Assembly (NCBI GenBank): GCA_000720805.1
Contig: JODI01000010.1
Coordinates: forward strand, 84,712 to 148,711
Reading direction: 5' to 3'
DNA length: 64,000 nucleotides
Origin: Streptomyces violaceoruber
GTDB lineage: Bacteria; Actinomycetota; Actinomycetes; Streptomycetales; Streptomycetaceae
Both the position numbers and the translations under genes were made by a program. A model generated the notes under the pieces. The model was not told the origin of the DNA, did not search any database, and saw only the letters and a program-made list of their open reading frames with translations. Shown in pieces: positions 13,210 through 58,198 of this stretch (position 1 is its first letter; every line of letters starts with the position of its first letter).

Positions 13210-13252
13210 AAGCCGAGGGGCTGTTCCGGCTGTTACTCCGGCTTGTGCTCCG
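13210..13252 (-). repeat. Stop-anchored 12-bp repeats at the end of the 285-aa membrane protein gene
   Basis: Read on the minus strand, CCGGAGCACAAG, CCGGAGTAACAG and CCGGAACAG follow one another. The first unit encodes the last residues, the second contains the TAA stop, and the third lies beyond it. Confidence 0.5.
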
Positions 13253-14090
13253 GCCCCCCGAAGTCCGGGCTGGTGTAGTCCGGGCTCGTGAAGCTCGGTC
13301 GCGAGCCGGAGGCGCCGTCGTCCGGGCTGCTGAAGCCGGGCCGGTCGTAGCCGAGGTGCGGCATGCGGCTGGTCGGCGCCGGCGGTGCCGTACGACGCAG
13401 AGCGGCGGTTCCGGGATCGGCGAGGGCCTCCCGCAGAAAAGGCAGGATGCCGCGCTCCATCAGTGCCTCGAGCCAGGCTTCCCTGGCCCGGATCACTTCC
13501 GCGTTCATCTCGCCGTACGGTCCCGCTTCGAGCGAGGGCCGGTTGCGCAGAGCGGTCAGGAGCAGTCCGACAGCGGCGACGAGGATCGCGGCCGCGGTCA
13601 TGGCGCCGAACACCCATCCGGCGGTGAGCATGGTCTGGGCGAACGCCGGCTCCGGGTCGAGCATCTTGAGTATGTAACCCACGAGCAGGAAGATCGCCGC
13701 GGCGGTTCCGGCCAGGACGGGTGCCAGGACCGCGACGACGGCGATGGCTCCAGCGCCGGTGGTCTCGGCGACCTCTCCCATGGTGGTGGCGAGCCCCATC
13801 GCGGCGGTGCCCGGCTCCGCGGAGCCGGTGTCCCGGTGGGACGACGGGGTGGACGGCGCCGGGTGACGCAGTTCCTCGCGGGCCTTCACGTAGTGCTGGT
13901 ACTCGGTCGCTGCGGCCGCCGTGATGAGCGCGGTGGCGTTGAGCGCCATGGTGCGCAGCTGTTCCGGGTTGAGCCGCTGTCCGACAGCGGCCAGTTCCGG
14001 GCGGGTTGGTGCGGAGCGCAGCGCCTCATCGAGGATCCGCTCGTATTCCTGGCGGTCCTCGCTCAGCAGGTGCTGCGGAACGCTGTTCAT
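13233..14090 (-). CDS. Membrane protein of unknown function, two TM helices
   Basis: A 285-residue protein with an N-terminal alpha-helical region (residues 1-100), two hydrophobic helices (about 115-145 and 155-185), a further amphipathic stretch, and a Pro/Ser/Asp-rich C-terminal tail with short repeats of the SFTSPDYTSPDFGGPE kind. No family is recognised. The ATG at 14090 is preferred because GGGGG lies six bases upstream; an in-frame ATG two codons earlier is also possible. The end of the gene shows short repeats spanning the stop codon. Confidence 0.75.
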   Translation of the reverse strand: MNSVPQHLLSEDRQEYERILDEALRSAPTRPELAAVGQRLNPEQLRTMALNATALITAAAATEYQHYVKAREELRHPAPSTPSSHRDTGSAEPGTAAMGLATTMGEVAETTGAGAIAVVAVLAPVLAGTAAAIFLLVGYILKMLDPEPAFAQTMLTAGWVFGAMTAAAILVAAVGLLLTALRNRPSLEAGPYGEMNAEVIRAREAWLEALMERGILPFLREALADPGTAALRRTAPPAPTSRMPHLGYDRPGFSSPDDGASGSRPSFTSPDYTSPDFGGPEHKPE

Positions 14091-14288
14091 GTGCATCCCC
14101 CGATGCTCCGTAGGGCTTGGGGCTCGCACGCTGACGAGCCGTCGGGCAGAAACGGAGGGGAGCCTGCTACGGATAAGCCGATGGTAGAGCGATGACGGTA
14201 CGGCGTGACAGGGGGTTTACCGAAAATGCGCTGTGGCCTGTGTCGTCACCGGTCGGTCCGGCAGGGGGAACGTCTGCCCCGTGAACGG

Positions 14289-15371
14289 TCAGGCATCCAG
14301 CGGAAGTTGCTGGACCAGCAGCTTTCCGGCCATGGTCACTCCGCCGTCCATGGCGATGGCGAGTCCGTCGGCGTAGAGGTGCGGTCCCTCGACCACGGGG
14401 ACGGCCGGGTCCTCGCCCTCCTCGGAGCCGACTTCGCCCAGGAGGTAGGGGATGGGGCTGTGGCCGTGGACGATGCGGGTGCCGCCGTACGTGTCGAGCA
14501 GGGAGCGCACATGGTCGGCGCCGCCCTCGTCGCGGAAGGAGAAGCGCTTGGTGAACTTGCGGAACAGGTCCCACACCTCGTCCGCGTCGTTGCGCGTGAT
14601 GGTCTCGCGGACGGTGTCGTTGACCGCTTCGATCGAGTCGCCGTAGTCGAGGTAGGCAGTGGTGTCGGAGTGGACGAGCAGGTGCCCGTCGACCTGCTCC
14701 ATGGCGTCGAGGCGGGCCATCCACTGCAGATGGTGGTCCTGGAGGCGGTCCATGTCCGTCTTCTGGCCGCCGTTGAGCAGCCAGGCCGCCTGGAAGGTGG
14801 CGGTGCCCGCGCCGGAGTTGACGGGCGTGTCGCCGAACCGCTTGGCGCCGAGCAGGAGGAGCTCGTGGTTGCCCATGAGGGCCTTGCAGTAGCCGCCGGC
14901 CGCGGCGGCCTCGGCGGACAGCCGCATCACGAGGTCGATGACGCCGATGCCGTCCGGGCCGCGGTCGGTGAAGTCGCCGAGGAACCACAGCCGTGCGGTG
15001 CCCGCGCACCAGTTGCCCGCGGCGTCGAGGAGGCCCTTCTCCTGGAGCGCTGCGACCAGTTCGTCGAGATAGCCGTGCACGTCCCCCACGACGAAGAGCG
15101 GGCCGGGGCCGGCCGTGGGCTGTGGGGCCGGGAGGGAGGCCGGATCGACGGTCGTCCGCAGCGTGTCGCCCCGCTGGATGACCGGCAGGTCGCGCTCCGT
15201 GGGGGTGTAGCCCTCCGGATGGTCCACCGGTTCCTCGACCGGGCTGACCGTGTCACCGCTGTGCACGCCCTGCGGGTACGGACCGGTCTCGTGGACGTAC
15301 GCGGGCACCCGGAAGTCGCGCAACGTCGCCGTCCGCTCCACCTCGGGTCCCTGACCGGCCCCCTGAGTCAT
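14289..15371 (-). CDS. Calcineurin-like metallophosphoesterase
   Basis: A 360-residue protein with a complete metallophosphoesterase core: GDVHG (about residue 95), GDFTDRG (132), GNHE (167) and a late GHSP (300). The order and the DRG match PPP-type Ser/Thr and symmetrical dinucleoside-tetraphosphate phosphatases, so the substrate is a phosphoprotein or Ap4A-like nucleotide. The first ~85 residues are a Pro-rich extension. It is transcribed alone on the minus strand, 280 bp from its neighbours. Confidence 0.85.
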   Translation of the reverse strand: MTQGAGQGPEVERTATLRDFRVPAYVHETGPYPQGVHSGDTVSPVEEPVDHPEGYTPTERDLPVIQRGDTLRTTVDPASLPAPQPTAGPGPLFVVGDVHGYLDELVAALQEKGLLDAAGNWCAGTARLWFLGDFTDRGPDGIGVIDLVMRLSAEAAAAGGYCKALMGNHELLLLGAKRFGDTPVNSGAGTATFQAAWLLNGGQKTDMDRLQDHHLQWMARLDAMEQVDGHLLVHSDTTAYLDYGDSIEAVNDTVRETITRNDADEVWDLFRKFTKRFSFRDEGGADHVRSLLDTYGGTRIVHGHSPIPYLLGEVGSEEGEDPAVPVVEGPHLYADGLAIAMDGGVTMAGKLLVQQLPLDA

Positions 15372-15659
15372 CAGACCCCTCCACCATCGCGCCGCATCTG
15401 CACCGCGTCGGACTGCCTGGTCGCAGCGGCCCGCGGTGTCGTGGGCCCATCATAGGAATGCGGATCGCGCTGTGTGATGACCCAGGGGTGGTGAATCGGA
15501 GCAGGACTCCAGTTCACCGTGGCTTTCGCCCCGATTGGGCAGGGGTTCGACCGTGCGGTGAGGACCGCTGAGCGTTCCGGTGACCCGTCGGTGAGAGCCT
15601 GGTCACCGCCCCCGCACTGCCCGGCCGAACGCGCTTACCGCCTTGCCCGGTCGCCCGCG

Positions 15660-16772
15660 CTACTTCCCCTCGGGGGATCGCGGCGCGCTGACCGTCGTCC
15701 GCGGCGGACGTCGCTGGGAAGAGGTACGCACGATCAGTTCGGTCGGTATCACCTGCTCGACCGGCTGGTCGGACTCGAGCCCCTCGATGGCGTCGATGAG
15801 GAGCTGAACCACGGCCGTGCCGATACGGCGCGGTTTCAGGGAGAGCGTGGTGACGGGCGGCTCGGTGTTGGCATACACGGTGGACTCGCTGCAGCAGACC
15901 AGAAGCAGGTCGTCCGGTACGCGCAGTCCGTAGCGACGGGCGGCGGCGAGCAGGTCGGTGCCGTTCGGGTCGAACAGGCCGTAGACGGCGTCCGGACGGT
16001 CGGGGCGGGCGAGCAGCCGGTCGGCGGCGACGGCGCCCGCGCACGGATCGTGCGCCGGGTAGGCCTCGTACACCGGATCCTGGCCCACACGCTCGCACCA
16101 GCGCAGGTATGCGGTGGTCGACAGATGGGTGTACGTGTCCGTGCTGGTCCCGGTGAGCAGGCCGATGCGGCGGGCACCGGCGTCGGCCAGGTGGTCGAGG
16201 ATCCCGAGGACGGCGGCCTCGTGGTCGTTGTCGACCCAGGCGGTGACCGGGAGCGTGCCGGCCGGGCGGCCGTCGGAGACGACCGGCAGACCCTGCCGGA
16301 CCAGTTCGCTGACGACGGGGTCCTGGTCGGACGGGTCGATGACGACCGTGCCGTCGAGGGCGACGTTCGACCACACGTCGTGCCGGGAGGTCGCCGGGAG
16401 GATGACGAGGGCGTAGCCGCGGGCGAGTGCGGCCGAGGTGGCGGCCCGCGCCATCTCGGCGAAGTAGGCGAACTCGGTGAAGGTGAAAGGTTCATCCCCG
16501 TACGTCGTCACGGTCAGACCGATCAGTCCGGACTTGCCGGTACGGAGGGTGCGGGCGGCGGCCGAGGGCCGGTAACCCAGCCGGTCGGCGACCTCGCGGA
16601 CATGGCGTCGGGTGGCGTCCGGGAGCCTGCCCTTCCCGTTGAGGGCGTCGGAGACGGTCGTGATGGAGACTCCGGCGGCGGCGGCAACGTCTCTGATGCC
16701 CGCCCGGCCCGGCCGGCTGCCTCGCCGAGAGGTTTCCGCGCGGCTCACCTGGTGCTTCCCTGCTGCTGTCAT
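15660..16772 (-). CDS. LacI-family transcriptional regulator
   Basis: A 370-residue LacI/GalR-type repressor. The helix-turn-helix reads GIRDVAAAAGVSITTVSDAL with the hinge ending YRPSAAARTLRTGKSGLIGL, followed by a sugar-binding-type periplasmic domain. The ATG at 16772 is chosen because translation upstream gives non-family sequence. The hisC gene is divergent and unlikely to be its target; a ligand cannot be read from the context. Confidence 0.88.
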   Translation of the reverse strand: MTAAGKHQVSRAETSRRGSRPGRAGIRDVAAAAGVSITTVSDALNGKGRLPDATRRHVREVADRLGYRPSAAARTLRTGKSGLIGLTVTTYGDEPFTFTEFAYFAEMARAATSAALARGYALVILPATSRHDVWSNVALDGTVVIDPSDQDPVVSELVRQGLPVVSDGRPAGTLPVTAWVDNDHEAAVLGILDHLADAGARRIGLLTGTSTDTYTHLSTTAYLRWCERVGQDPVYEAYPAHDPCAGAVAADRLLARPDRPDAVYGLFDPNGTDLLAAARRYGLRVPDDLLLVCCSESTVYANTEPPVTTLSLKPRRIGTAVVQLLIDAIEGLESDQPVEQVIPTELIVRTSSQRRPPRTTVSAPRSPEGK

Positions 16773-18361: not shown

Positions 18362-18406
18362 CGCCCCTCACGCCTCGAACGGCTATGGGTCATAATTGCT
18401 TGTGAA

Positions 18407-20014: not shown

Positions 20015-20034
20015 GCCGAGGGAGCTGCACAGTC

Positions 20035-21030
<996 letters not shown>

Positions 21031-21039
<9 letters not shown>

Positions 21040-21117
21040 CCGTGCGAAACCGGTGCGAAACCCGTGCACTTGACCGTGCGAACCAGTGCGCTGACCTTGC
21101 TGAAACCGTGCGTTGAG
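21031..21117 (+). repeat. Stop-anchored repeats between cydB and cydCD
   Basis: The last codons and stop of cydB, GTGCACTGA (21031-21039), recur as GTGCACTTGA (21063), GTGCGCTGA (21086) and GTGCGTTGA (21109), separated by ACCGTGCGAAAC-like spacers. The final copy abuts the ribosome-binding site of cydCD. Confidence 0.6.
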
Positions 21118-24777: not shown

Positions 24778-25848
24778 ATGCGCTCACTTCGCCGTCATCC
24801 GCTGCTTGTTCCGGCGCTGCTGTGCGCGTTCGCCGTGCTCGCGGCCCGTCCCACCGACGGGGGCGGCGGCGGTGCGGGCGAGGGTGCGTACGGCTCGGCG
24901 GACTCCGGGATCAGCGGGCAGGTGGCCCGGCTGTACGAGGCCGCGGCGGTGGCGACGCAGCGGTACGAGGCGGGACGGCTCAAGGCCGAGGGGCAGCGGG
25001 CGCGGGCGCTGCGAGTGGAGGCGCTCCTCGACCGAGAGCGACGGGAGAGCGCGGTGATGCGTGAGGACCTGGGCCGCATCGCACGGGCCCAGTACCGCAG
25101 CGGCGGCGGACTGCCGCTCACCGCGCAGCTCATCCTCGCCGACAGCCAGGATGAGCTGATGCGCGGTCAGCACGTCTTCTCGCAGACGCAACTGGCGGTC
25201 AACAACGCGATCGACAAGAGCCGTCGGGCCGAACGCCGGCTCGCCGCGGACGAGGCGAAGGCCGTGGCGGCCTGGCAGGCCCTGGAGCAGCGGAACGCCG
25301 AACTCGCCAGTCTGAAGAAGGACATCGAGCAGAAACTCGACCAGGCGCGCCGGCAGTTGCAGGGGCAGGCGGACGCGTCCGTCGCGGCCGGTGCCTGCCG
25401 TGGCGCTGTCCGGCTCGATCAGCCGCGGAAGGCCGTCACGAACGCATGGGTCGCTCCTGTGGAGGCGTACACGCTGTCCGCCGGCTTCGGCAGCGGCGGT
25501 GCCCGGTGGGCGAACCGGCACACCGGGCAGGACTTCGCGGTGCCGATCGGTACGCTGGTGCGGGCGGTCGGCGCCGGCCGGGTGGTGAAGGTGTCGTGCG
25601 GGGGCGCCTTCGGGATCGAGGCGGTCGTGGAGCACATGGGCGGCTACTACACGCAGTACGCCCATCTCGCCGCCGTCACCGTCGACCAGGGTGAGCAGGT
25701 GAGTGCGGGGCAGTGGATCGGTCAGTCGGGCACGTCCGGCAACTCCACCGGCCCGCACCTGCACTTCGAGGTGCGGGTCACCCCGGAGATGGGCTCGGCG
25801 GTCGATCCGGTGCCGTGGTTGGCGGCAAGAGGAGTGCCGTTGGGATAG
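24778..25848 (+). CDS. Secreted M23 (LytM-type) peptidase with coiled coil
   Basis: A 356-residue exported protein: a signal peptide (RHPLLVPALLCAFAVLAARP), an alpha-helical coiled-coil segment (about 45-205) rich in Ala/Glu/Arg, and a C-terminal LytM domain. Zinc ligands are in place: HTGQD near 250 and HLHFE near 330. Such proteins cut peptidoglycan cross-links or activate amidases at division sites. The last codons and a copy of them lie on both sides of the stop. Confidence 0.9.
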   Translation: MRSLRRHPLLVPALLCAFAVLAARPTDGGGGGAGEGAYGSADSGISGQVARLYEAAAVATQRYEAGRLKAEGQRARALRVEALLDRERRESAVMREDLGRIARAQYRSGGGLPLTAQLILADSQDELMRGQHVFSQTQLAVNNAIDKSRRAERRLAADEAKAVAAWQALEQRNAELASLKKDIEQKLDQARRQLQGQADASVAAGACRGAVRLDQPRKAVTNAWVAPVEAYTLSAGFGSGGARWANRHTGQDFAVPIGTLVRAVGAGRVVKVSCGGAFGIEAVVEHMGGYYTQYAHLAAVTVDQGEQVSAGQWIGQSGTSGNSTGPHLHFEVRVTPEMGSAVDPVPWLAARGVPLG

Positions 25849-25871
25849 CACCCGCGCGGAGTGCCGTTGGG
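25831..25871 (+). repeat. Stop-anchored duplication at the M23 gene end
   Basis: GGAGTGCCGTTGGG at 25831-25844, the codons before the TAG stop, is repeated at 25858-25871, 27 bp later. Period 27 keeps the reading phase. Confidence 0.7.
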
Positions 25872-37576: not shown

Positions 37577-37888
37577 CTGTCCACAGAAATCCACAGCCGC
37601 GAAAAGTTATCCACAGGGTGTGCGAAAGATCTGTGGACGCCGGAAGTGATCATTCCGGCACGGGTCTCCGGGGTGGAGGATTCCCGAGGCAAACCACCTT
37701 CACGCCCACTTTCGGGTGGAAATGAGTCACCTCGAAGGGTGGACCGAAGGAAACGGGTGGACGAAGAGTGACCTACGGGACTGTGGACGAACTTGAGGGC
37801 TGTAGGGCGATTTGTCGACTGGGTGGTACTTCGTTGTCGACTTGTCCCCAGGTCGAGAAGCTCGCCTGTGGATAACTCCTGTGGATAA
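37577..37888. other. DnaA-box cluster between serS and pheA
   Basis: The 37372-37922 gap has no credible gene. Boxes seen: CTGTCCACA 37577-37585, TTATCCACA 37607-37615, TGTGGACGA 37782-37790, and two TGTGGATAA copies at 37867-37875 and 37880-37888. Weaker matches are AAATCCACA at 37587, TGTGGACGC at 37632 and TTGTCCCCA at 37842. S. coelicolor has a DnaA-titrating cluster, D78, in this part of its chromosome; this or the cluster at 28909 may correspond to it. Confidence 0.75.
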
Positions 37889-38904: not shown

Positions 38905-39036
38905 AGCCCCCCTCGGGGGGATGGACCCCAGGGCGATGGCACCCTAGTGCGCTGGACCACGCACAGGGCGATGGACAACCCCCAGGGCGATGGACAACCC
39001 CCAGGGCGCTGGATCACTCCAAGGGCGTTGGACTCA
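38905..39036 (-). repeat. Stop-anchored 19-bp repeats after dtpA
   Basis: On the minus strand the array starts with the last codon and stop of dtpA (GGG TGA) and continues as GGAGTGATCCAGCGCCCTG, two identical GGGGTTGTCCATCGCCCTG units, TGCGTGGTCCAGCGCACTA and shorter remnants, filling the gap to pheA. Period 19. Confidence 0.8.
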
Positions 39037-40416
39037 CCCCTCCAGCAGCCGCTGCCCCACGTACTCCCCCTCCGCCGCCCCGCCCGGCACCGCGAAAAGG
39101 CCGCTGGCCTCGTGGCGGATGTACTGGGACAGGGCGTCGCCGCGGTCGAGCTTGCGCTGGACCGGGACGAAGCCGCGCAGCGGGTCGGTCTGCCAGCAGA
39201 CGAAGAGGAGACCGGCGTCGGGAACCCCGTCCTGGTCGAAGCCGTCGTGGTACGAGAACGGGCGGCGGAGCATCGCCGCGCCCCCGTTCTGGTCGGGGCG
39301 GGTGATGCGGGCGTGCGCGTTGATCGGGACGACCAGGTTGCCCTTGGCATCGGTCTTCTCCAGGTCCATCTCGGTCGTCTCGGTGCCCCCGGAAAGAGCC
39401 GCCCCGTCGGACTTGCGGCGCCCGATGACGTTCTCCTGGGCCGCGACCGAGAGCTTCTCCCAGTCGTCGAGGAGCATGCGGATGCGGCGTACGACGGCGT
39501 AGGAGCCGTTCGCCATCCACGCGGGCGTGCCGGACTCGGGTACGAAGACGCGCTGGTCGAAGTCGGATTCGCGCGGCTTCGGATTGCGGGTGCCGTCCAG
39601 CTGCCCCATCAGATTGCGGGCCGTCATGGGGTGGGACGTCGCGCCGGGTGAGCGGTTGAAGCCGTTCATCTGCCAGCGGAGCCGCGCAGCGTCGCCCGCG
39701 TCCTTCTGGAGGGCGCGCAGGGCGTGGAAGGCGACCAGTGCGTCGTTGGCGCCGATCTGCACCCACAGGTCGCCGTCGCTGCGCTTCTTGTCGAGGTGGT
39801 CGGAGGAGAAGTCGGGCAGCGGGTCCAGCGCGACCGGTCGCTGTTTCTCCAGGCCCGTGCGGCCGAAGAAGCTGTGCCCGAAGCCGAAGGTGACCGTCAG
39901 CGAGGACGGGCCGGCATCCCGGGCCACGTCCGTGTCGTCGTGGGGCGCCGCCTCGCCCGCCATCAACCGCCGGGCTGTCTGCGACCAGCGGCGCAGCAGC
40001 GCGGCGGCCTCCTTGCGGCCCGCCCCCGCGGCCAGGTCGAAGGCGACGAGGTGGCCGCGGGCCTGGAGTCCCTCGGTGATACCGGGCTGATGTTTCCCGT
40101 GAAACATCACCTGGTCCGCGCCCACGGAGGTCAGCGGTGTGGCCCGGGACGGCTGGGCGGTGTAGCCGACGACCCCGCCGGCCGCGCCCAGGACGAGCCC
40201 GGTGGCCCCGGCGGTCCCGAGCAGCTTCCGTCGGGTGAGGCCCTCCACGGAGCGGGCGGTTTCGAAGGCACCCTCCTTGACTTCGGAGGCACCCTCCCCG
40301 ACCTCCTCGACTTCGGAGGCACCCACCTCGACTTCGGTCGTGCCCTCCTTGAGTTCGGAGGAGCTCTCCTCGTCGAGCGCGGGAGGGCGGGCCTCCGGAA
40401 TGGACTGGTCAGGCAT
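39034..40416 (-). CDS. dtpA: Tat-exported DyP-type haem peroxidase
   Basis: A 460-residue dye-decolorising peroxidase of the EfeB/DtpA group. A twin-arginine signal (TRRKLLGTAGATG) starts near residue 60 after an acidic, repetitive leader (TEVEVGASEVEE, GEGASEVKEGAF). The GXXDG motif is GQLDGTRNP near 262, and the proximal His region follows at about 340-360. In S. lividans DtpA acts with Sco and ECuC in maturing the copper oxidase GlxA; the gene order here (sco, ecuC, copCD, dtpA) is the same. A one-mismatch parS lies inside the gene. Confidence 0.9.
   Translation of the reverse strand: MPDQSIPEARPPALDEESSSELKEGTTEVEVGASEVEEVGEGASEVKEGAFETARSVEGLTRRKLLGTAGATGLVLGAAGGVVGYTAQPSRATPLTSVGADQVMFHGKHQPGITEGLQARGHLVAFDLAAGAGRKEAAALLRRWSQTARRLMAGEAAPHDDTDVARDAGPSSLTVTFGFGHSFFGRTGLEKQRPVALDPLPDFSSDHLDKKRSDGDLWVQIGANDALVAFHALRALQKDAGDAARLRWQMNGFNRSPGATSHPMTARNLMGQLDGTRNPKPRESDFDQRVFVPESGTPAWMANGSYAVVRRIRMLLDDWEKLSVAAQENVIGRRKSDGAALSGGTETTEMDLEKTDAKGNLVVPINAHARITRPDQNGGAAMLRRPFSYHDGFDQDGVPDAGLLFVCWQTDPLRGFVPVQRKLDRGDALSQYIRHEASGLFAVPGGAAEGEYVGQRLLEG
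40092..40105. other. parS: parS-like site inside dtpA (one mismatch)
   Basis: GTTTCCCGTGAAAC, flanked by T and A so that 15 of the 16 bases of TGTTTCACGTGAAACA match. It encodes MFHGKH, just after the signal-peptide region of dtpA. Confidence 0.7.
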
Positions 40417-47887: not shown

Positions 47888-49085
47888 GGTCCGCCCGGGT
47901 GCCCTGGGCCCTGCGCGCGGCCGGGCCCATCGCGTACGACGCCGCCAGCGTCACCCCGCCCAGCAGCAGCCATCCGGGGGTGCCCCACTCCACCAGCAGC
48001 GTCGTCAGGACCAGCGGGCCGAGGGTGCGGGCGACGGTGACGCCCGTCCCGAAGAACCCCTGGTACTCGCCCACCCGGTCGGCCGGAGCCAGGTCGAAGG
48101 ACATCTGCCAGGAACCCGCCGACTGCCCCATCTCCGCGACCACTTGCAGCACCGCACCGACGACCAGCACACCCACGGCCGCTCCCGGCGAGGCACCCGC
48201 CGCCAGCGCGAACGCCACGCACGCCGCCAGCATCACCCACCCCGACCGCCGCACCGCCCGTGTGGCCGACGCGAGCCCGCTCACCCCGCGCGCCATCCTC
48301 ACCTGGAACAGCATCACCGCCCCGGTGTTGAGCACGAACAGAGCGGAGACCAGCCAGGTGGGCGCGTCCGTGCGCTCCGCGATCCACAACGGCAGACCGA
48401 GACTGAGCAACGGCATGCGCAGCAGCAGCACGGTGTTCAGCAGGGTGACCACGGCGTACGGGCGGTCGCGCAGGACACCGAGGCCGTGACGGTTGCCCGC
48501 CCCCCTCGGCGGCACGGACGGCAACCGCAGCAACAGTGCGGCGCACACCACGAAACCCACCGCGTCCAGCGCGAACACCCCGAGATACGCCGCCCTCGTC
48601 CCGGCGCTCAGCGCGACCCCGCCCAGCCCCGCGCCCACCGCGAGCCCGGCGTTCAGCGTCGACTGGAGATGCGCGAGCAGCCCGGTCCGTTCCCCGGCGG
48701 ACGTCAGCCCCGCCAGCAGCGCCTGCCGGGCCGCGGCCAGCCCCGACTGGGCGGCGGCGTACGCGCACGCGGCCGCGACGAACGGCAGGAACCCGCGGAC
48801 GATCAGGAAGGAGCCCACCGCGAGCGCCGTCGCCGTCGCCAGCAGCACCGCCGTACCGCGCGGCCCGCGCCGGTCCGCGAGCCGCCCCAGCGGCACCCCC
48901 ACCAGCGAACCGAACGCCCAGGCGAGGGTCAGCCCCAGGCCCACGCGCGCGGGGGTGAGCCCGACGACGTGGGTGAAGTAGAGCGCCGACGTCACGTAAT
49001 AGGCGCCGTCACCGACGGAGTTGGTCAACTGGGCGAGGGCCAGGACGCGTTGCGGGCCCGCGGGCGGGACGAGTGCGTTCGTCAT
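47862..49085 (-). CDS. Major facilitator superfamily transporter
   Basis: A 407-residue permease with 12 predicted helices. The MFS loop 2-3 motif is GVPLGRLADRRGPRG near 60-75. It resembles actinobacterial drug/multi-substrate exporters. Just downstream of the MocR-type regulator gene on the same strand (55-bp gap), which may control it. ATG start at 49085. Confidence 0.88.
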   Translation of the reverse strand: MTNALVPPAGPQRVLALAQLTNSVGDGAYYVTSALYFTHVVGLTPARVGLGLTLAWAFGSLVGVPLGRLADRRGPRGTAVLLATATALAVGSFLIVRGFLPFVAAACAYAAAQSGLAAARQALLAGLTSAGERTGLLAHLQSTLNAGLAVGAGLGGVALSAGTRAAYLGVFALDAVGFVVCAALLLRLPSVPPRGAGNRHGLGVLRDRPYAVVTLLNTVLLLRMPLLSLGLPLWIAERTDAPTWLVSALFVLNTGAVMLFQVRMARGVSGLASATRAVRRSGWVMLAACVAFALAAGASPGAAVGVLVVGAVLQVVAEMGQSAGSWQMSFDLAPADRVGEYQGFFGTGVTVARTLGPLVLTTLLVEWGTPGWLLLGGVTLAASYAMGPAARRAQGTRADLRPPVPVN

Positions 49086-49140
49086 GCACTCGACCCTAGG
49101 AACGCGGTGGGCCAGTCGGCAGACCCAATCCGTACCCCGC

Positions 49141-50529
49141 TCAGTGGCCCAATTCCAGAACCTTCCGCAGCACCTCCAACGCCTCCGGGTACACCCGCTC
49201 CCGGGGCGTCCCGTATCCCACGACCAGCCCCCGCGGCCGACCCACGCCGCCCGGCGCGTGCCAGTGCTCCCCGAGGTGCCCCACCGCGAGCCCCTCCATC
49301 GCCGCCCGCTCCAGCACCGCCGCCTCGTCGTCCACCTCGACGAGCGCGTGCAGCCCGGCCGCGATCCCGCGTACGCGCCGACGCGCCCCCAGCCGGTCCA
49401 GAAGCTGGTCCCTGCGCCGGCGGTACCGCAGCCGGCAGGCGCGCACATGACGGTCATAGGCATGGCTGTCGATGAGCTCGGCCAGCGCCAACTGGCCGAT
49501 GGACTCGGTGTGGTGGTCGCTGTGCAGCTTGGCGTCGGCCACCGCGTCGACCAGGTGCGGCGGCAGGACCATCCAGCCGAGCCGCAGCGCGGGCCCGAGC
49601 GTCTTGGAGGCGGTGCCCAGATACGCGACGTGCCCCGGCGCCATCCCCTGGAGCGCGCCGACGGGCTGCCGGTCGTAACGGAACTCCCCGTCGTAGTCGT
49701 CCTCGACGACCAAGGCCCCACGCGCGCGTGCCCAGTCGGTCAGCGCCCGCCGGCGCTCCGGGTGCAGAATCACGCCGGTCGGATACTGATGCGCGGGCGT
49801 GACGACCACGGCGGCCGTGCCCCCGATGTCCTCCAAGTCATCGACGCACGCTCCCCGCTCGTCCACCCGCACCGGCACGACCCGCCCGCCCCCGCGCCGG
49901 ACCACCTCCCGGTGGAAGGGCAGCCCGGGATCCTCCATGGCCACCGTGCCGCCCTCCAGCACCCGCGTGAGCAGCGACAGCCCCTGCACGTACCCGGAGG
50001 TGACCACGATCCGCTCCGGCGGCGCGACGACCCCGCGAGCCCGCCCCAGGTACCCCGACAGCGCGGTCCGCAGCTCGATCCGCCCGCGCGGATCGCCGTA
50101 GTCGTACACCCGCGAGGGCGCCGTCGCGAGGGCACGCCGCAGCGCGCGCATCCAGGCGGCCGCGGGAAACGTCCCGACGTCCGGACTACCCGGCCGCAGA
50201 TCGAAACGCGGCACCCGCGCGCGGGCGGTGGCCTCCGGCGGCTCGGCCGAGAGCGGAGGCAGCGGGGCAACCTGGGTCCCGGCGCCCTGCCGAGCCGTGA
50301 GGTACCCCTCGGCGACCAGCTGGTCGTACGCCGCCTTGACGGTCCCGCGCGAGACCCCCAACTCCTCCGAGAGCCGCCGGGTGGCAGGCAACCGCGCCCC
50401 GGGCGCCAGCCGTCCGTCCCGAACCGCGTCGCGCAGGGCACGCTCGAGACCGGCACGACGCCCTTCGGAAGGGTTCGCTTCCACATGAAGGTCCACACCA
50501 ACGCCCCCAGGGGCGCGAAGCTGTGACAT
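49141..50529 (-). CDS. MocR/PdxR-type GntR regulator with aminotransferase domain
   Basis: A 462-residue regulator: a GntR winged helix (about 25-90; LSEELGVSRGTVKAAYDQLV) joined to a type-I aminotransferase-like domain. The PLP lysine is in GTASKTLGPALRLGW near 320. MocR proteins use PLP or amino-acid adducts as effectors. The ATG at 50529 starts MSQLRAPGGVG. The likely target is its own promoter and perhaps the MFS gene downstream. Confidence 0.9.
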   Translation of the reverse strand: MSQLRAPGGVGVDLHVEANPSEGRRAGLERALRDAVRDGRLAPGARLPATRRLSEELGVSRGTVKAAYDQLVAEGYLTARQGAGTQVAPLPPLSAEPPEATARARVPRFDLRPGSPDVGTFPAAAWMRALRRALATAPSRVYDYGDPRGRIELRTALSGYLGRARGVVAPPERIVVTSGYVQGLSLLTRVLEGGTVAMEDPGLPFHREVVRRGGGRVVPVRVDERGACVDDLEDIGGTAAVVVTPAHQYPTGVILHPERRRALTDWARARGALVVEDDYDGEFRYDRQPVGALQGMAPGHVAYLGTASKTLGPALRLGWMVLPPHLVDAVADAKLHSDHHTESIGQLALAELIDSHAYDRHVRACRLRYRRRRDQLLDRLGARRRVRGIAAGLHALVEVDDEAAVLERAAMEGLAVGHLGEHWHAPGGVGRPRGLVVGYGTPRERVYPEALEVLRKVLELGH

Positions 50530-50582
50530 AGGAGGCTCCGCCGCGTGGGCGCGATCAGCCACCACCTGCTCGCCGCCGGAAC

Positions 50583-52166: not shown

Positions 52167-52261
52167 ACTCGAAGACGGCTGCCGGAAGCCGGGCGCGCCC
52201 GAAGACGGGCGCCCGAAGACGGCTGCTCGAAGGTGGGTGCTCGAGGCCGGCTACTCGAAGT
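52167..52261 (-). repeat. Stop-anchored ~14-bp repeats after the PP2C gene
   Basis: On the minus strand the end of the gene, TTCGAGTAG, is followed by seven or so degenerate units beginning TTCGAG or TTCGGG (TTCGAGCAGCCGTC, TTCGGGCGCCCGTC, TTCCGGCAGCCGTC, TTCGAGTTGCCGTC), reaching toward pepP. Confidence 0.65.
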
Positions 52262-53765
52262 GAACGGCCAGCAACACCACGTCCTCTTCGCTGTCCGCCT
52301 CGTCCCGTCCGCCCGGCAGCACGGTCCGCAGGACGTGGTCGGCGATGGCGGCAGGGTCGTGCCGCAGGTCCCTCGGCACTCCGGCCGCCGCCGCGTGCAG
52401 CCGCGCGAAGGCACGGTCGGTGGGGTCCCCGGTGCGGTGCAGCAGCCCGTCGGTGTACAGCAGCACCGTCTCTCCGGCCGCCGCGTGGAACTCCACACTC
52501 GGCGCCTCCCAGCAGGCGAGCATCCCCAGGGGCGCCGACACGGACGTCTCCACGAACTCGGTGCGCCGCGGCCCGACCAGCAGCGGCGGGCAGTGCCCGG
52601 CACCGGCGAGGGTGATCTTGCGCAGCGCGGGCTCGCAGTAGGCGAACAGGGCGGTGGCCGAGCGGGCGGGCTCGGTGAGCCGGAGCAACAGCTCCAGGTC
52701 GGACAGGACGGCGACGGGGTCCTCGCCCTCCATCACGGCGTACGCCCGCAGGGAGGCCCTCAGGCGGCCCATCGCGGCGACCGCACTGGCCCCGGAGCCC
52801 GTCACCGAGCCGACGGCCAGTCCGAGTGCGGCGTCCGGCAGCGGCAGCGCGTCGTACCAGTCGCCGCCGCCGCGCGGGCCGGTGCGGTGGCGGGCGGCGA
52901 GCCGTACTCCGGCGACGCGGGGGAGCCGGGACGGCAGCAGTTCCTCGGAGATCGTCGCCAGGCACGCGCGTGTGCGCTCCACCTCGACCAGCCGGGCCAG
53001 GTGCTCGCCGGCGTACCGGGCGTACAGGCCGACGAGGTGGCGCTGGCGCTCGGCCGGTTCGGCGGGCTCGTCGTAGAGCCACACGGCGGCGCCGAGCCGG
53101 CCGGTGATGGTGTCGGCGGCCAGCGGGAGCGCGTAGCTCGCGGCGTAGCCGAGGCGGGCGGCGACCTCGCGGTGGCGGGGGTCGAGTCCGGCGTCCGCGA
53201 ACAGGTCGGGCTGGGCGATCTCGCCGTCGCCGCCCGGCAGTCCGTCGAGGATGCGGCCGTACGCCAGGGAGCTGCGCGGCACGGTCTCGATGTGGCCGAG
53301 GTCGGCGCGGCCGAGGCCCAGGCCGATGGTGGTGTCGGGGCCGAGCCCGTCGGCCGGCTCCAGCACGACGAGTCCGCGGCGGGCGCCCACCAGGGCGGCT
53401 CCGGCGCGCAGTACTTCCTGGAGAGCGTCGGCGAGCCCACCCGTGCGCACCAGCCGTTCGGTGAGCTCGTGCAGGGTCGTCAGATCGGAGACCCAGCCGG
53501 CGAGACGGTCGGTGAGCAGGGCGCCCGGGGCGTTGGGGGAGAGCACCGAAGGGGTACCCGAGGCGGCAGGCGCGGGCGCGACAGTGTGTGCGGGTGAGGG
53601 AACCGTTGAATCGATTCCAGCCACTTTCGGAGGGTGGGGGGCGTTCATGGCGTCCGGCTTTCTGACCGGTGCGTATTGCTCAAAAGCATCGCAAACCCCC
53701 ATGTCATTCTGCACCGCTAGCAGTGTCTCCACATGTACACGCACTCGTGAGGGGATGTCCAGCAT
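52251..53765 (-). CDS. GAF-PP2C (RsbU-type) serine phosphatase
   Basis: A 504-residue cytoplasmic phosphatase. Residues about 130-270 form a GAF-like sensor domain; from 280 an SpoIIE/RsbU-type PP2C follows, with GGDWYDA, GSVTGSGASAVAAMGRLR, TALFAYC and DGLLHRTGD motifs. It would dephosphorylate STAS-type anti-anti-sigma factors, opposing RsbW-like kinases such as those at 45561 and 57262. The ATG at 53765 has AGGAC five bases upstream; an internal ATG at 53648 is a shorter alternative. Confidence 0.87.
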   Translation of the reverse strand: MLDIPSRVRVHVETLLAVQNDMGVCDAFEQYAPVRKPDAMNAPHPPKVAGIDSTVPSPAHTVAPAPAASGTPSVLSPNAPGALLTDRLAGWVSDLTTLHELTERLVRTGGLADALQEVLRAGAALVGARRGLVVLEPADGLGPDTTIGLGLGRADLGHIETVPRSSLAYGRILDGLPGGDGEIAQPDLFADAGLDPRHREVAARLGYAASYALPLAADTITGRLGAAVWLYDEPAEPAERQRHLVGLYARYAGEHLARLVEVERTRACLATISEELLPSRLPRVAGVRLAARHRTGPRGGGDWYDALPLPDAALGLAVGSVTGSGASAVAAMGRLRASLRAYAVMEGEDPVAVLSDLELLLRLTEPARSATALFAYCEPALRKITLAGAGHCPPLLVGPRRTEFVETSVSAPLGMLACWEAPSVEFHAAAGETVLLYTDGLLHRTGDPTDRAFARLHAAAAGVPRDLRHDPAAIADHVLRTVLPGGRDEADSEEDVVLLAVHFE

Positions 53766-54259
53766 TGTCCTGCCGGGATTCCTGGTGTCCGTGAGCCATC
53801 GGTGCACCACTTGCCAAAAGGCAAAGTTGGCTTAAAACTGACCCAGGTAGAGGCCTATTGCGGTCGACTGGGCTTGTTCCACAGAGCGTCACACCGGTCG
53901 TGATGGGTACGTACTCGGAGAAGACCAGGGGTGGTTGGCAATCACCCGGAACCTGGCGACGGACCCGGGCGTCTTAGCCACCGACGACCGAGCCCCATCC
54001 TCCCGTGGCGGAGGCGAAGAGAAATACGCGGGACGGCAAACGCCAGACTTCGCCACCCCCACGCCACGCTCATGCTTTTGATAGACCGCAGGTATGGGCG
54101 AGGCTGCCGCGGATGCAGCCGACGTTCGGCCCATAGGGGTTCCCCTTGTCTCCGACAGGGGTGTGATGCGCCAACAGGTACGCACAGTGAAGTGATCGAC
54201 ACATGGTGTGATGTGGTCCACGGTGTTGCCAGCGGTGCAACGGAAAGGAACGAGCGCTC
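53766..54259. other. Intergenic region between PP2C and Prim-Pol genes
   Basis: About 490 bp of divergent promoter region with no credible gene. Visible are a hairpin CCCCTTGTC (54142-54150) / GACAGGGG (54154-54161) and GTTGC/GCAAC just ahead of the AAAGGAA ribosome-binding site of the next gene. The length suggests long leaders or regulator sites. Confidence 0.5.
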
Positions 54260-54925
54260 ATGCGCGAGATCCTCGGAAAGCGACGCAGGCTCCTGTCCCA
54301 GCGCAGCGACGGGAGGCCTGAGTTGATCAGCGCGGCCCTGACCTTCGCCAAGGAATGGCAGTGGCCCGTACTCCCGGGTGTGGCGGCGGACCCTCAGGGT
54401 CGCGACCGCTGCGGGTGCCCGGATCCCGAGTGCACGGTGCCAGGTGCCCACCCCTTCGACCCCGGCCTCCTCGCGGCCACCACCGACGAACGCATGGTGC
54501 GCTGGTGGTGGGCCAACCGGCCCGCCGCCCCCATCGTCCTGGCCACCGGCGGCCAGGCTCCCTGTGCGGTCAGCCTGCCGGCGCTCCCGGCCGCCCGTGC
54601 CCTCGGCGCGCTCGACCGCGACGGCATGCGCCTCGGCCCGGTCGTCGCCTCGCCCACCCGCTGGGCGATCCTCGTGAAGCCGTACTCCCTGGAACAGCTG
54701 GGCGAACTGCTGTACGCCAAGGACCATGTCCCCGGCTCCCTCCGCTTCCACGGCGAGGGCGGCTACCTCGCCCTGCCCCCGTCCGAGACCGGCCAGGGCG
54801 AGATCCGCTGGGAACGCGCACCACTGCCCGGCTCCGCCGCCCCGTGGGTGCCGGATGTCGAGGCCGTGGTGGACGCGGTGGTCGAGGCTCTCACTCGTAC
54901 GGGTGTGAGCGCGCCCGAGTTGTAA
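54260..54925 (+). CDS. Prim-Pol-like (bifunctional primase/polymerase N-terminal) domain protein
   Basis: A 221-residue protein. It has the family pattern RPELISAALTFAKEWQWPVL, CGCPDPECTVPGAHPFD with a Cys/His cluster, and WWWANRPAAPIVLATG. Only the N-terminal primase-polymerase-like domain is present, with no helicase. Such short versions are common in Streptomyces and their activity is unproven. The usual acidic catalytic pair is not evident here (the strand after PIVLATGG reads APCAVSLP), so it may be inactive. Confidence 0.7.
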   Translation: MREILGKRRRLLSQRSDGRPELISAALTFAKEWQWPVLPGVAADPQGRDRCGCPDPECTVPGAHPFDPGLLAATTDERMVRWWWANRPAAPIVLATGGQAPCAVSLPALPAARALGALDRDGMRLGPVVASPTRWAILVKPYSLEQLGELLYAKDHVPGSLRFHGEGGYLALPPSETGQGEIRWERAPLPGSAAPWVPDVEAVVDAVVEALTRTGVSAPEL

Positions 54926-54981
54926 GGGTGTCGGGCGCGGACGGAACCGGCCGCCCGCCCCCACTCGTTATCTTCCGGCGT

Positions 54982-55695
54982 ATGAACCTTCGTCTGCTCG
55001 CCCTCGCGGGCGTCGCGGCATGCGTGGTCGCGCTGCCGCTGGCCGTGGCGTCCGCGGGCCAAGTGGGCGACGAGGGCCGCCCGCCCGCAGGCACGTCCGT
55101 GCGCGCGGATGCGCTTGATTCCGTACGTACGTCCGCGGAGGCCGGTGGGCGTGGATCCGTAGGCACATCCCCGGAGGCCGGGGGGCGTGCATCCGTACGT
55201 ACCTCCGCGCACCCCCATGAGCGCGACTCCGGACGCCCGTCCGCCCGCGCCGACGCCAAGGCCCCGCCCGCCGCACCCGGCCTCCCCCGCGCGCGAACCA
55301 CGTCGGACGAGGGGACCTCGACGCCGTTCCCGCTCGGCCTGGGGCTGGCCACCGCCGCCCGCTGCGGCCCCGAACTCACCTCCCCCGACGGCATCGAGGC
55401 GCAGACGTGCGTGCTGACCCAGGGTGAGGAGAGCTGGGCCCGCACCTACTACCGCAACACGACCGGCGACGCGCTGGACGCCGACCTGAGCCTGCTGGGG
55501 CCCGGTGGCCGCGCCGTGCAGATCCGCTGCCCGGTCGCCGCCGAGGACGAGCCCGGAACCTGCGAGACACCTCGGGAACGGACCCTGGGCGACCTGAACG
55601 GCTACTCGGCGGTCACGGAGTTCGCGGCGCGGGGCGGGGACGGGCCGCTGCTGCTGCGGTCCGGGAGCAACTCCGGGGCACCTACGGGCAGTTGA
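54982..55695 (+). CDS. Secreted protein of unknown function
   Basis: A 237-residue exported protein with a signal peptide (LRLLALAGVAACVVALPLAVASA). Residues 30-110 are low-complexity and repetitive (SVRTSAEAGGRGSVGTSPEAGG, in the DNA a ~48-bp tandem unit). The C-terminal ~110 residues are more regular with three cysteines (RCGPEL, QTCVLTQGEESWARTYYRN, TCETPRE) and may form a disulphide-stabilised beta domain. No family recognised. A strong terminator follows. Confidence 0.7.
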   Translation: MNLRLLALAGVAACVVALPLAVASAGQVGDEGRPPAGTSVRADALDSVRTSAEAGGRGSVGTSPEAGGRASVRTSAHPHERDSGRPSARADAKAPPAAPGLPRARTTSDEGTSTPFPLGLGLATAARCGPELTSPDGIEAQTCVLTQGEESWARTYYRNTTGDALDADLSLLGPGGRAVQIRCPVAAEDEPGTCETPRERTLGDLNGYSAVTEFAARGGDGPLLLRSGSNSGAPTGS

Positions 55696-55737
55696 CGCGC
55701 GATTCCACTCCGTAAGGGGAGTCCGCGCAAGGAAAGA

Positions 55738-55775
55738 CCCGGTTGCTGGCGACGGGGGATGCACCAGCAACCGGG
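55738..55775 (+). terminator. 12-bp hairpin terminator of the secreted-protein gene
   Basis: CCCGGTTGCTGG (55738-55749) and CCAGCAACCGGG (55764-55775) are perfect inverted repeats around a 14-base loop, 43 bp after the stop. Confidence 0.75.
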
Positions 55776-55892
55776 CTACTCGAACGGTAACAAGAGATCG
55801 GTGGTTCGCAAATTCGATCTCGGCCCGTCGTTGCCTATTCGGACACCGAATGGCTTGTCCTGAGCGGGAGTTGGGAGCCTCGGCCCCTCGAA

Positions 55893-55924
55893 CCGTGCGG
55901 CTGACCGACCAGTCAGCCGCACGG
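55893..55924 (-). terminator. 13-bp hairpin terminator of the SEC-C protein gene
   Basis: CCGTGCGGCTGAC (55893-55905) pairs perfectly with GTCAGCCGCACGG (55912-55924), six-base loop. It is 6 bp beyond the stop of the minus-strand gene. Confidence 0.85.
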
Positions 55925-55930
55925 ACTTCG

Positions 55931-56920
55931 TCAACTCAGCGTGACCTGCCGGTTGGTGAGCCCGCCGCGCGCGCGGCGCTCGTCGGCTGTCAGCGGAGCG
56001 TCCGTGGCCAGCGCGTCCGCGAGGCGCTCGGCGAACTCGGCGGCCGGCTTCTCGATGTCCTCCGCGCTGATGCCGCTCGGCAGGTCCCAGACCGGCACCG
56101 TGAGCCCGTGAGCGCGGAAGGAACCCACCAGACGGGTGCCCTCACCGAGGCTGGAGCGGCCCGCCGCGTGCAACCGCGCGAGAGCGTCCAGAAGCTGCTC
56201 CTCCGGGTGCGGCATGACCCAGCGCAGGTGGTTCTTCTCCGAGGTCTCGCACCAGTACGCCGCGTCCACGCCGGTCAGCCGCACGGTCGGGATGGCGGCG
56301 GCGTTGGCCCGCTCCAGGGAGGCGGTCACCTCCGGAGTGGCGTTCTCCGCGTCCGGGACCCAGAACTCGAAGCCCGGGTGCACAACTGGCTCGAACGTGC
56401 CTTCGGGGTCGAGCAGATCCTGGAGCCGCGGACTGTCGGCCGGGGCGCGGCGGCCCTCCACCGGGGTGCCGGGCTCCGCGGTCAGCGCGCGCTGAAGGGT
56501 GTCGGCGAGGTCGCGGCTGATGTCGCCGGACGCAGTGTCGTTCTGCAGTCCGATCAGCACCGAGCCGTCGTCGCGGCGCAGCGCGGGCCAGGCCATCGGC
56601 AGGACCGTGGCGAGCGTGACCGACGGGACGCCCTCGGGGAGGCCGCTCTTCAGTGTCAGCGTGACCGTCGCGGCCGGCACCAGCTCGCGCAGCGCCACCC
56701 AGTCGCACTCGCCCGCCAGTCCCTCGAACGGGCGGTGCACCAACTCGGTCGCTGCCTGCGCGGCCGCCCGGCCGTGACAGGCCTTGTAACGGCGGCCACT
56801 GCCGCACGGGCAGGGCTCGCGGGCACCGACCACCGGAACGTGCCCGTCAGCGCCTGCGGCGCGGGCCCCGTCCGTGGTCTGCGGCCGCTTGGCCTTCGTC
56901 TGGGGGCGCTTCTTGGCCAT
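55931..56920 (-). CDS. DUF5926 protein with SEC-C zinc motif
   Basis: A 329-residue protein. A Lys/Arg-rich start (MAKKRPQTKAKRPQTT) is followed by a SEC-C zinc-binding motif, CPCGSGRRYKACHG (about 37-50), as found at the end of SecA. The remaining ~270 residues match the actinobacterial DUF5926 family of unknown function. Three DnaA-box-like sequences lie 75-140 bp upstream of the ATG. Confidence 0.85.
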   Translation of the reverse strand: MAKKRPQTKAKRPQTTDGARAAGADGHVPVVGAREPCPCGSGRRYKACHGRAAAQAATELVHRPFEGLAGECDWVALRELVPAATVTLTLKSGLPEGVPSVTLATVLPMAWPALRRDDGSVLIGLQNDTASGDISRDLADTLQRALTAEPGTPVEGRRAPADSPRLQDLLDPEGTFEPVVHPGFEFWVPDAENATPEVTASLERANAAAIPTVRLTGVDAAYWCETSEKNHLRWVMPHPEEQLLDALARLHAAGRSSLGEGTRLVGSFRAHGLTVPVWDLPSGISAEDIEKPAAEFAERLADALATDAPLTADERRARGGLTNRQVTLS

Positions 56921-56995
56921 GGTGGGTGTCTCCCGGTTACGGCTCGTCTCGTACGGGCGCGAGCCTAGCCGTTCACGACTTGACCGATGGGAGGC

Positions 56996-57061
56996 TGTGG
57001 ACAACGGGGCGGATGTGCCGAGCTGTGGACAACGGGAGTCCGTGTGCCGAACTGTGCACAA
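56996..57061. other. Three DnaA-box units in 28-29 bp tandem
   Basis: TGTGGACAA at 56996-57004 and 57024-57032 and TGTGCACAA at 57053-57061 are each followed by CGG and separated by GGATGTGCCGAG-like spacers, so the boxes are part of a tandem repeat. The first two are perfect Streptomyces DnaA boxes in reverse orientation. Located between the SEC-C gene start and the end of the RsbW-like gene. Confidence 0.75.
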
Positions 57062-57110
57062 CGGTCGGCCGAGTTCTTGGACCGGCCCGGTCCACCAGTC
57101 GGTTCAGCCC

Positions 57111-57178
57111 CCGGTCGGCCCTGTCCTCCGGTCGGCCCTGGTCTCCGCTCGGCCCTGTCCTCCGCTCGGCTCAGTCCG
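57111..57178 (-). repeat. 17-bp tandem repeat, four units
   Basis: CCGGTCGGCCCTGTCCT and three variants start at 57111, 57128, 57145 and 57162 with an exact 17-bp period. The last unit merges into the 18-bp array that reaches the RsbW-like gene. Confidence 0.85.
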
Positions 57179-57279
57179 TGTCGTCGAATCAGTCCGTGCT
57201 GCCGAATCAGTCCGTGCCGGTCGACTCACTCCGTGGGGTCGGCTCACTCCATGGCGTCGAATCAGTCCATGTCGTCGAA
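57171..57279 (-). repeat. Six 18-bp copies of the gene end of the RsbW-like gene
   Basis: On the minus strand the terminal codons TTCGACGACATGGACTGA (57279-57262) are followed by TTCGACGCCATGGAGTGA, GCCGACCCCACGGAGTGA, one 19-bp unit, TTCGGCAGCACGGACTGA and TTCGACGACACGGACTGA. Every unit ends in TGA. Confidence 0.9.
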
Positions 57280-57900
57280 CGCGTCCGCGAAGTCCAGGCC
57301 CGGCAGTGCCGGTACCGACGGTGCCGTGACGCGCGTGGCGAAGTCGTCGCGGCGGTGACCGGCGTCCGGGTCGTGAACGTCGGTGTGGACGATCACCCAG
57401 ACCGTCACCTCGCCCCGGGCGTCGTCCCGGACGCCCCAGTCCTCGGCCAGTGCCGTGATGATGTTGAGCCCGCGGCCGCCGTGCGCGGTGACCGAGGGCG
57501 TGGCTGGAGCCGGGCGGGTGGGCCCGCCGCCGTCCGTCACCTCGACCGTGAGTCTGCCGCCCGCGTCCACCCGCCAGGTGGCGCGGACATCGCCGTCCCC
57601 GGCCAGGGCGTCGCCCAGCGGCCGGCCGTGCTTGCACGCGTTGCTCAAAAGTTCGGAAAGAATCAGTACGGCGTCGTCGATGACCGATTCCGAAACACCG
57701 CCCCTGCGTAGTTGCGTACGCATACGGTGCCTTGCCTGGCCCACGCCCGCAGGGCCATGGGGTACGGCCATGCTCGACGACGTGGGCACCTCCTGTGCCA
57801 CCACCAACGCCACCCCCGAGACCTCCTTTGCCCCACGCCACGGTGTGGATGCCCCTTTGGCCTGTACCGGAAACCGGCCAATCCAGGTCTGACGACGCAT
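57262..57900 (-). CDS. RsbW-like ATP-binding anti-sigma-factor protein, second copy
   Basis: A 212-residue protein with a GHKL ATPase domain from about residue 55: N-box ELLSNACKHG, G1 VTDGGGP, G2 AHGGRGLNIITALAE. A ~50-residue leader (QAKGASTPWRGAKEVSGVAL, PTSSSMAVPHGPAGVGQARH) precedes it. The ATG at 57900 is the likely start; the frame extends upstream without family similarity. C-terminal residues FDDMD are the template of the downstream 18-bp array. Probably part of a sigma-factor partner-switch. Confidence 0.83.
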   Translation of the reverse strand: MRRQTWIGRFPVQAKGASTPWRGAKEVSGVALVVAQEVPTSSSMAVPHGPAGVGQARHRMRTQLRRGGVSESVIDDAVLILSELLSNACKHGRPLGDALAGDGDVRATWRVDAGGRLTVEVTDGGGPTRPAPATPSVTAHGGRGLNIITALAEDWGVRDDARGEVTVWVIVHTDVHDPDAGHRRDDFATRVTAPSVPALPGLDFADAFDDMD

Positions 57901-58099
57901 TCGCAACGATCGAACACTGACCGAACGCGCCGGAGCACTCCCTGTAGCGATGTGGCTGGATTTCGACGGTATGGCCGAGGCTGGAGAATGGCGGCTGAGG
58001 GAGGGGCGGGTCAAGGGTTCTTCACAGGTCTTTACCAGTCATGTGAGCACGTCAGGCCTGGCCTCCGGCTGTCCAGCGCGTCTCTCTCCGCCGCCTTCG

Positions 58100-58198
58100 T
58101 CAGTCATCTCCGCCGACCGCCTTTTGCCGGTGATCTTCATCGGCCACCTTCACCGACCACGTTCGTCGGCCACCTCCACCGGCCATCCCCGCCAGTCA
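58100..58198 (-). repeat. Stop-anchored 13-bp repeats after the GDPD gene
   Basis: On the minus strand, the last codon and stop (CGC TGA, in GGCCGCTGA) are followed by GGCCGGTGGAGGT, GGCCGACGAACGT, GGTCGGTGAAGGT, GGCCGATGAAGAT and weaker units out to about 58100. Confidence 0.7.

Follow-up and report, generated by a model that had tools for sequence, protein, structure and literature searches.

Tandem repeats that seem to begin at the stop codons of genes raise the question of whether the stop codon itself holds them in place. We addressed it in a stretch of 64,000 nucleotides from Streptomyces violaceoruber (GCA_000720805.1, contig JODI01000010.1, positions 84,712 to 148,711; hereafter the window), the end of a contig in a 10.5-Mb draft genome. 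An initial annotation had described degenerate arrays at seven gene ends there, each beginning with the stop and the codons just before it, running on downstream and using a unit copied from its own gene end. The arrays are best read as ordinary fast-changing repeats found where extra copies do little harm, and not as a dedicated element tied to stop codons. Very probably they are independent minisatellites of the variable-number tandem repeat (VNTR) type, born of local tandem duplication and kept where neither a protein nor a promoter is disturbed. The arrays, called with Tandem Repeats Finder (TRF) unless stated, and their genes, named by Pfam, are the following.

13225..13254, minus strand: 12-bp array x2.5 spanning the stop of gene 13233 (TRF score 39)
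13233-14129, minus strand: gene 13233, Yip1-like, under the Pfam cut-off
20035-21039, plus strand: cydB
21040..21116, plus strand: 11/22-bp array directly 3' of cydB, with a partial copy across the stop
24778-25848, plus strand: M23 peptidase gene
25831..25871, plus strand: two exact 14-nt copies at a lag of 27, spanning the TAG of the M23 peptidase gene (from the sequence; no TRF array)
38926..39033, minus strand: 19-bp array x5.8 (alternative register 57 bp x1.9) at the dtpA end, beginning right at the stop
39034-40416, minus strand: dtpA (Dyp peroxidase)
52168..52260, minus strand: 14-bp array spanning the stop of the SpoIIE-type PP2C gene (TRF 52170-52232, or -10..+83 of the stop)
52251-53810, minus strand: SpoIIE-type PP2C gene
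56994..57064, minus strand: 29-bp array x2.5 ahead of the DUF5926 gene, repeating a DnaA-box-like TTGTCCACA site
57111..57170, minus strand: second array at the rsbW-like gene end, 17 bp x3.5, the downstream continuation of the 18-bp array
57171..57279, minus strand: 18-bp array x6 at the rsbW-like gene end, first unit in the last codons plus TGA
57262-58014, minus strand: rsbW-like gene (HATPase_c_2)
58135..58185, minus strand: 13/26-bp array at the GDPD gene end, beginning 10 nt past the stop
58196-59512, minus strand: GDPD gene

TRF was run from -30 to +110 of each of these stops, with 1000 dinucleotide shuffles per locus. At five ends (cydB, dtpA, SpoIIE/PP2C, rsbW-like and GDPD) the observed array was matched by none of the 1000 shuffles, in registers of 22 bp x2.9 at cydB, 28 bp at SpoIIE/PP2C and 26 bp at GDPD and with a score of 140 at dtpA. 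The array of gene 13233 is marginal (equalled in 16 of 1000 shuffles), and the M23 end gave no TRF call and holds a single exact 14-nt pair. Units are wholly different between loci, as described. Starting points are less uniform than was claimed: relative to the stop, arrays begin at -18 or -7 at rsbW (two TRF runs), -10 at SpoIIE, -22 at 13233 and -18 at M23, in agreement with a start in the last codons, but at 0 at dtpA, +10 at GDPD and +13 at cydB, where the partial copy across the stop was seen by eye. Some arrays do copy their own gene end; the GDPD unit does not. Six of the seven lie between co-directional genes, M23 being convergent, a preference that disappears genome-wide (67/405 co-directional against 18/102 convergent spacers, score ≥60). 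In the genome-wide set described below, 4 of the window's 49 gene ends carry an array of score ≥50 starting at -30 to +10 (34474, dtpA, rsbW and GDPD); the SpoIIE array is missing from them because that set starts it at +18.

The genome-wide survey covered 1.62 Mb of the host genome and 1311 genes from a home-made Markov gene finder, whose stops are safer than its starts. We counted arrays of TRF score ≥50 and period 9-60 in spacers of at least 60 bp, some counts being made at scores of ≥60 or ≥80. Arrays were present in 77/405 co-directional, 19/102 convergent and 19/174 divergent spacers, compared to 2-7, 0-3 and 0-1 in five shuffles, and occupied 4.9%, 4.4% and 1.7% of the respective DNA and 0.6% of coding sequence (score ≥60). 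Spacers having a 3' end carried them more often than divergent ones, both in the host (85/507 vs 15/174; P=0.009) and in 80 named Streptomyces loci from one syntenic region (93/524 vs 21/218; P=0.005), where the counts by class were 84/399 co-directional, 28/125 convergent and 28/218 divergent. Around 689 stop ends array density (score ≥60) was 0.4% at -150 and climbed to 7.8% at +45..60, against 2.8% at equal distance ahead of 828 start ends. The arrays are non-random and concentrated downstream of genes, as the initial annotation held.

The same bias appears at the gene borders themselves, with 30 host arrays crossing a stop and 3 crossing a start (score ≥50), and 40 and 12 respectively in the 80 loci. 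Stop- and start-crossing arrays numbered 6 and 0, 1 and 0, and 3 and 0 in the relatives G007, G013 and G009, and 5 and 0 in G038, a genome of the same order as the host (spacers with arrays: co-directional 13/56, convergent 2/10, divergent 3/19). There were none of either kind in 200 kb of E. coli K-12 (73% called coding), whose 66 spacers held no arrays, nor in G045, from which nothing is drawn because its genes were badly called (46% coding when self-trained, 66% with the host model). Within coding sequence, 202 of 223 array periods are multiples of 3. Units are not perfect (median TRF match 85% for intergenic and 86% for straddling arrays); the arrays lie in DNA of 71% GC and have an AT skew near 0 (0.010).

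Anchoring on stop codons as a general rule found no such support. Array starts spread across -20..+60 genome-wide with no sharp peak at the stop, and we compared them with a null that lets an array fall at any point between one unit ahead of the stop and the far end of the spacer, optionally with a promoter guard kept free before a co-directional start. With a 20-nt guard, starts in -20..+5 numbered 20/104 in co-directional spacers (16.0 ± 3.4 expected) and 7/27 in convergent ones (7.1 expected; 3/15 vs 4.7 at score ≥80). A wider run took spacers of up to 600 bp and guards of 0, 40 and 80 nt, guard length being an assumption, and drew on an earlier run's gene calls for four relatives. With the 40-nt guard, stop-touching arrays were close to expectation in the host (21/83 vs 20.1; at score ≥80, 13 vs 11.4), in the four relatives (9/22 vs 7.1) and in co-directional spacers of the 80 loci (18/90 vs 20.6); the 80-nt guard left a deficit in the host (17/77 vs 24.6). 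Convergent spacers, for which a guard is unneeded, gave 5/19 in the host against 6.7 expected. Stop anchoring beyond geometry is thus mostly unneeded under this null in all three samples, with some exceptions. The check that the initial annotation had proposed, distance of array starts to stops versus random, returned mostly random-like starts with mild excesses in some sets, and there may be a small true preference for stops. The impression of anchoring can follow because coding sequence upstream is protected and a promoter lies downstream.

Turnover of the arrays can be followed in the nearest of the 80 loci, that of Streptomyces cellulosae NRRL B-2687 (L186), with 97.7% identity to the window across 13.9 kb. 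In 10.4 kb shared by the two, four indels exceed 1 bp (14, 18, 19 and 12 bp), and each falls in an array and amounts to about one unit. L186 has one 14-bp unit fewer in the SpoIIE array, is about one unit shorter in the 18-bp rsbW array (19-bp gap) and about one unit longer in the 17-bp rsbW array (18-bp gap); the 12-bp indel falls in the array at 59180. A 1.5-kb stretch of the window (49051-50540, with gene 49141-50484) has no counterpart in L186, where it would fall between aligned pieces at 16360-16365. L186 and another locus, JCM 4462 (L236), are both titled Streptomyces cellulosae, but their matches to the DUF5926 query reach 99% and 89%; because these matches differ, one of the two names is probably wrong.

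Between species, units are lineage-specific. Across four species with 61 shared gene ends, arrays were found at 9, 10, 13 and 5 ends, with mostly different periods; the clear case common to the host and G007 in place and period is a DnaA-box-like 13-bp pair near 37870. Ends with arrays in at least two of the four species were somewhat more frequent than expected (11/61 vs 6.7), an excess that spacer length alone could yield. The cydB end has no array in G007, G013 or G009, and at the dtpA end 28 readable relatives of 29 (L138 was unreadable) showed, by eye, mostly plain spacer and a few unrelated arrays. The comparison of orthologous ends thus found arrays mostly missing or built of unrelated units, the rsbW end being the place where they recur. 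At dtpA, the N-terminal part of the coding sequence (40272-40372) contains 30- and 21-bp repeats of its own; in most relatives the protein match starts only past residue ~40.

The rsbW end carries arrays in 40 of 77 Streptomyces loci, 51 arrays in total, all 77 tails having been checked to be the right gene end. The five other ends carry them in 6-10 of 71-80 loci each (40/77 vs 38/375; P=3e-15). The 51 arrays fall into 48 unit clusters, when pairs with periods within 2 nt are compared, and no fewer than 25 changes in presence are needed on a quick tree of DUF5926. Fourteen of them touch the stop, and most of these have units that contain the conserved gene tail, at periods such as 18, 23-24, 27-28 and 33-35. 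In one locus, L096 (G014), the reading frame ends in a YADGYDG-like repeat just before the stop, as if the array had been absorbed into the protein. The motif TTRTCCACA, presumably DnaA-box-like, recurs in this neighborhood: 60 of the 77 loci retain at least one site between the rsbW-like and DUF5926 genes, and the window has seven (28929, 28954, 37607, 37867, 37880, 56996 and 57024). The 1.62 Mb contain 23 sites, of which 22 are intergenic, against ~5 expected from composition, an enrichment that may point to a nearby oriC or to conservation of a DnaA-binding site.

These observations are consistent with a simple course of events. Local tandem duplication, through slipped replication or short-homology recombination, would make extra copies of ~10-60 bp anywhere, and changes in unit number would then let an array grow, shrink and diverge. 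Copies that fall within proteins or promoters or across start codons would mostly be purged, as their depletion there suggests, and copies in or overlapping the spacer 3' of a stop would persist. Those spanning the stop would do so because a duplication that contains it leaves the protein unchanged, and arrays would often seem to start at gene ends because the first unit can hold the last codons while the coding sequence upstream is protected. Slippage is the best of the three mechanisms that the initial annotation had offered, the others being back-up stops and a 3'-end RNA function.

Several results weigh against reading the arrays as ordinary, freely placed repeats. Without a guard, stop-touching arrays exceed expectation in the host (22/85 vs 15.0, P=0.02; at score ≥80, 14/36 vs 8.7, P=0.02) and in the four relatives (9/22 vs 4.2, P=0.015; at score ≥80, 6/10 vs 2.1, P=0.004). 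For the high-scoring arrays of the relatives the excess remains with the 40-nt guard (6/10 vs 3.3; P=0.03), and those of the host show one with the 20-nt guard (12/48 co-directional starts in -20..+5 vs 7.5 ± 2.2). Convergent spacers of the 80 loci lean the same way (12/26 vs 8.6; P=0.10), as do two single ends, with P values corrected neither for the number of ends (six) nor for phylogeny: none of the six SpoIIE arrays begins past +3 (2.0 expected up to there; P=0.0004), their presence needing just 3 changes on the tree, and 14/51 rsbW arrays touch the stop (9.1 expected; P=0.05). The tidy indels depend on the alignment: with a lower gap penalty, 13.9 kb against L186 give six indels of at least 5 bp, five non-coding and one coding, and the rsbW-end gaps become +37 and +35. 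The close pairs L210/L263 and L238/L247 differ by 4 and 6 mixed indels of that size, part of them unit changes. Depletion in divergent spacers fails as a universal rule, since in three relatives it is not significant (25/151 vs 4/41, score ≥60; P=0.34). Intergenic periods are multiples of 3 in 81 of 153 cases, perhaps through missed genes. Finally, a uniform duplication rate does not account for the heat of the rsbW end (40/77 vs 38/375).

This last point invites the idea that some gene ends are mutational hotspots, where the 3'-end sequence or a process acting there raises the duplication rate beyond what tolerance allows for. Such an addition would be compatible with ordinary minisatellites, and we regard it as possible but doubtful. 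In its boldest form, which we put forward tentatively, conserved gene ends, chiefly the rsbW-like one beside DUF5926, would be recurrent tandem-duplication hotspots throughout the genus, their own tails reseeding arrays species by species, and thus nurseries of repeat DNA. The frequency, repeated gain or loss and unit diversity of the rsbW arrays speak for the hotspot idea, as do the reuse of the same gene tail at different periods in several of them and the contact with the stop of 6/6 arrays at the SpoIIE end. Against it, the other four ends have arrays in 7-10 of 71-80 loci with no significant excess at stops, the convergent spacers of the host show no peak at stops, and one hot locus cannot separate mutation from relaxed constraint; the rsbW end may be a mutational hotspot or a tolerant site, and either reading fits. 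Repeated GAC codons in the rsbW tail, transcription termination or a replication pause at DnaA boxes are speculative candidates for a cause.

A role in termination or as structured RNA at 3' ends, including multi-part terminators, could explain why arrays cluster after genes and are rare beside starts. We consider it very unlikely. Array ends are less structured than array-free ones (mean z of -0.93 at 42 ends vs -1.32 in 150 sampled of 421; 20 shuffles each, ends with small overlap dropped), z falls below -2 at 14% and 31% of them, respectively, and the stronger hairpin expected of an intrinsic terminator is not seen. Different species moreover have mostly unrelated units, and at all orthologous ends but rsbW (five of six) most loci are array-free; a conserved terminator or RNA has no support in these data. 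Back-up stop codons leave a weak signal, and their retention as such is equally improbable. All six units of the 18-bp rsbW array contain TGA, the second and third in frame, with the 19-bp fourth unit shifting the frame, and an in-frame stop follows within 30 nt at 8/30 stop-crossing ends and at 63/548 others (P=0.02). Periods ignore the frame, with remainders of 0, 1 and 2 modulo 3 in 10, 12 and 4 of 26 stop-crossing arrays that lie mostly in spacers (13, 13 and 4 among all 30), so frame-keeping units are not seen, and near stops are about equally common with (4/13) and without (4/17) periods that are multiples of 3. Chance or faulty assembly could account for the marginal 13233 array and the single M23 pair; as a general explanation it is next to negligible. 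Shuffles predict ~4 co-directional spacers with arrays where 77/405 were counted, chance is refuted at cydB and dtpA by the 0/1000 shuffles, and both chance and artefact are refuted for the rsbW, SpoIIE and GDPD arrays, which no shuffle equalled and which recur with similar units in L186, an independent assembly.

If the arrays are minisatellites of this kind, they show how spacers lengthen and are remodelled in Streptomyces, and they suggest markers for strain typing. They are also a warning that the stop-anchored look of a repeat can largely follow from protected coding sequence upstream. The rsbW end, with its 40 array-bearing loci of 77, offers a natural replicate series for asking whether mutation or tolerance makes a hotspot.

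Mycobacterial interspersed repetitive units (MIRUs) form one dispersed family, some copies of which overlap the stops of upstream genes. They resemble the Streptomyces arrays in being intergenic, tandem and variable in copy number and differ in being a single family, whereas the Streptomyces units are particular to each locus; no family common to loci emerged, and even a single orthologous end gave 48 unit clusters in 51 arrays. MIRUs occupy 41 places according to the available part of the source (PMC2734929). The initial annotation knew of no described class of this kind; the archaeal Borg elements are already reported to carry arrays that have their first unit wholly or partly inside a gene end (PMC9879509, available part). 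Borg arrays also have a unit of their own each, independent origins and fast evolution, and their genic periods are multiples of 3 (PMC9879509), as in Streptomyces; the 30 host arrays that cross a stop likewise place the first unit in a gene end for a share of arrays. Borg intergenic periods are mostly not multiples of 3, unlike the 81/153 found here, and Borg units are described as perfect and A-enriched (PMC9879509), whereas the Streptomyces ones are degenerate, as the median matches above show, in GC-rich DNA and with an AT skew close to 0.

S. coelicolor is listed among satellite-rich species in the available part of another report (PMC6749651). Among the matches listed, judged by titles and abstract openings and with subscription journals mostly outside, no paper takes tandem repeats at the stop codons of bacteria as its subject; what may be new in the present work is the excess of arrays at 3' ends across the genome, the test that speaks against anchoring and the hotspot at rsbW. 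A close counterpart is the rnc-fpg1 VNTR of M. tuberculosis (ETR-F/VNTR3239), which takes up the spacer between a stop and the next start, a spacer that other mycobacteria have in short form (PMC2734929, available part). Like the arrays described here, it is an array of direct repeats in the spacer after a stop and varies in copy number between close relatives; unlike them, it starts 40 bp past the stop and has five identical 37-bp copies (PMC2734929), where Streptomyces units match at a median of ~85% and can extend over the stop and the codons before it. The Streptomyces arrays have two of the features by which VNTRs and minisatellites are recognized: head-to-tail units of ~10-60 bp beyond chance, at five of seven loci and as a genome-wide excess, and differences in unit number between close relatives, as seen against L186, where the placement of gaps shifts with the gap penalty.

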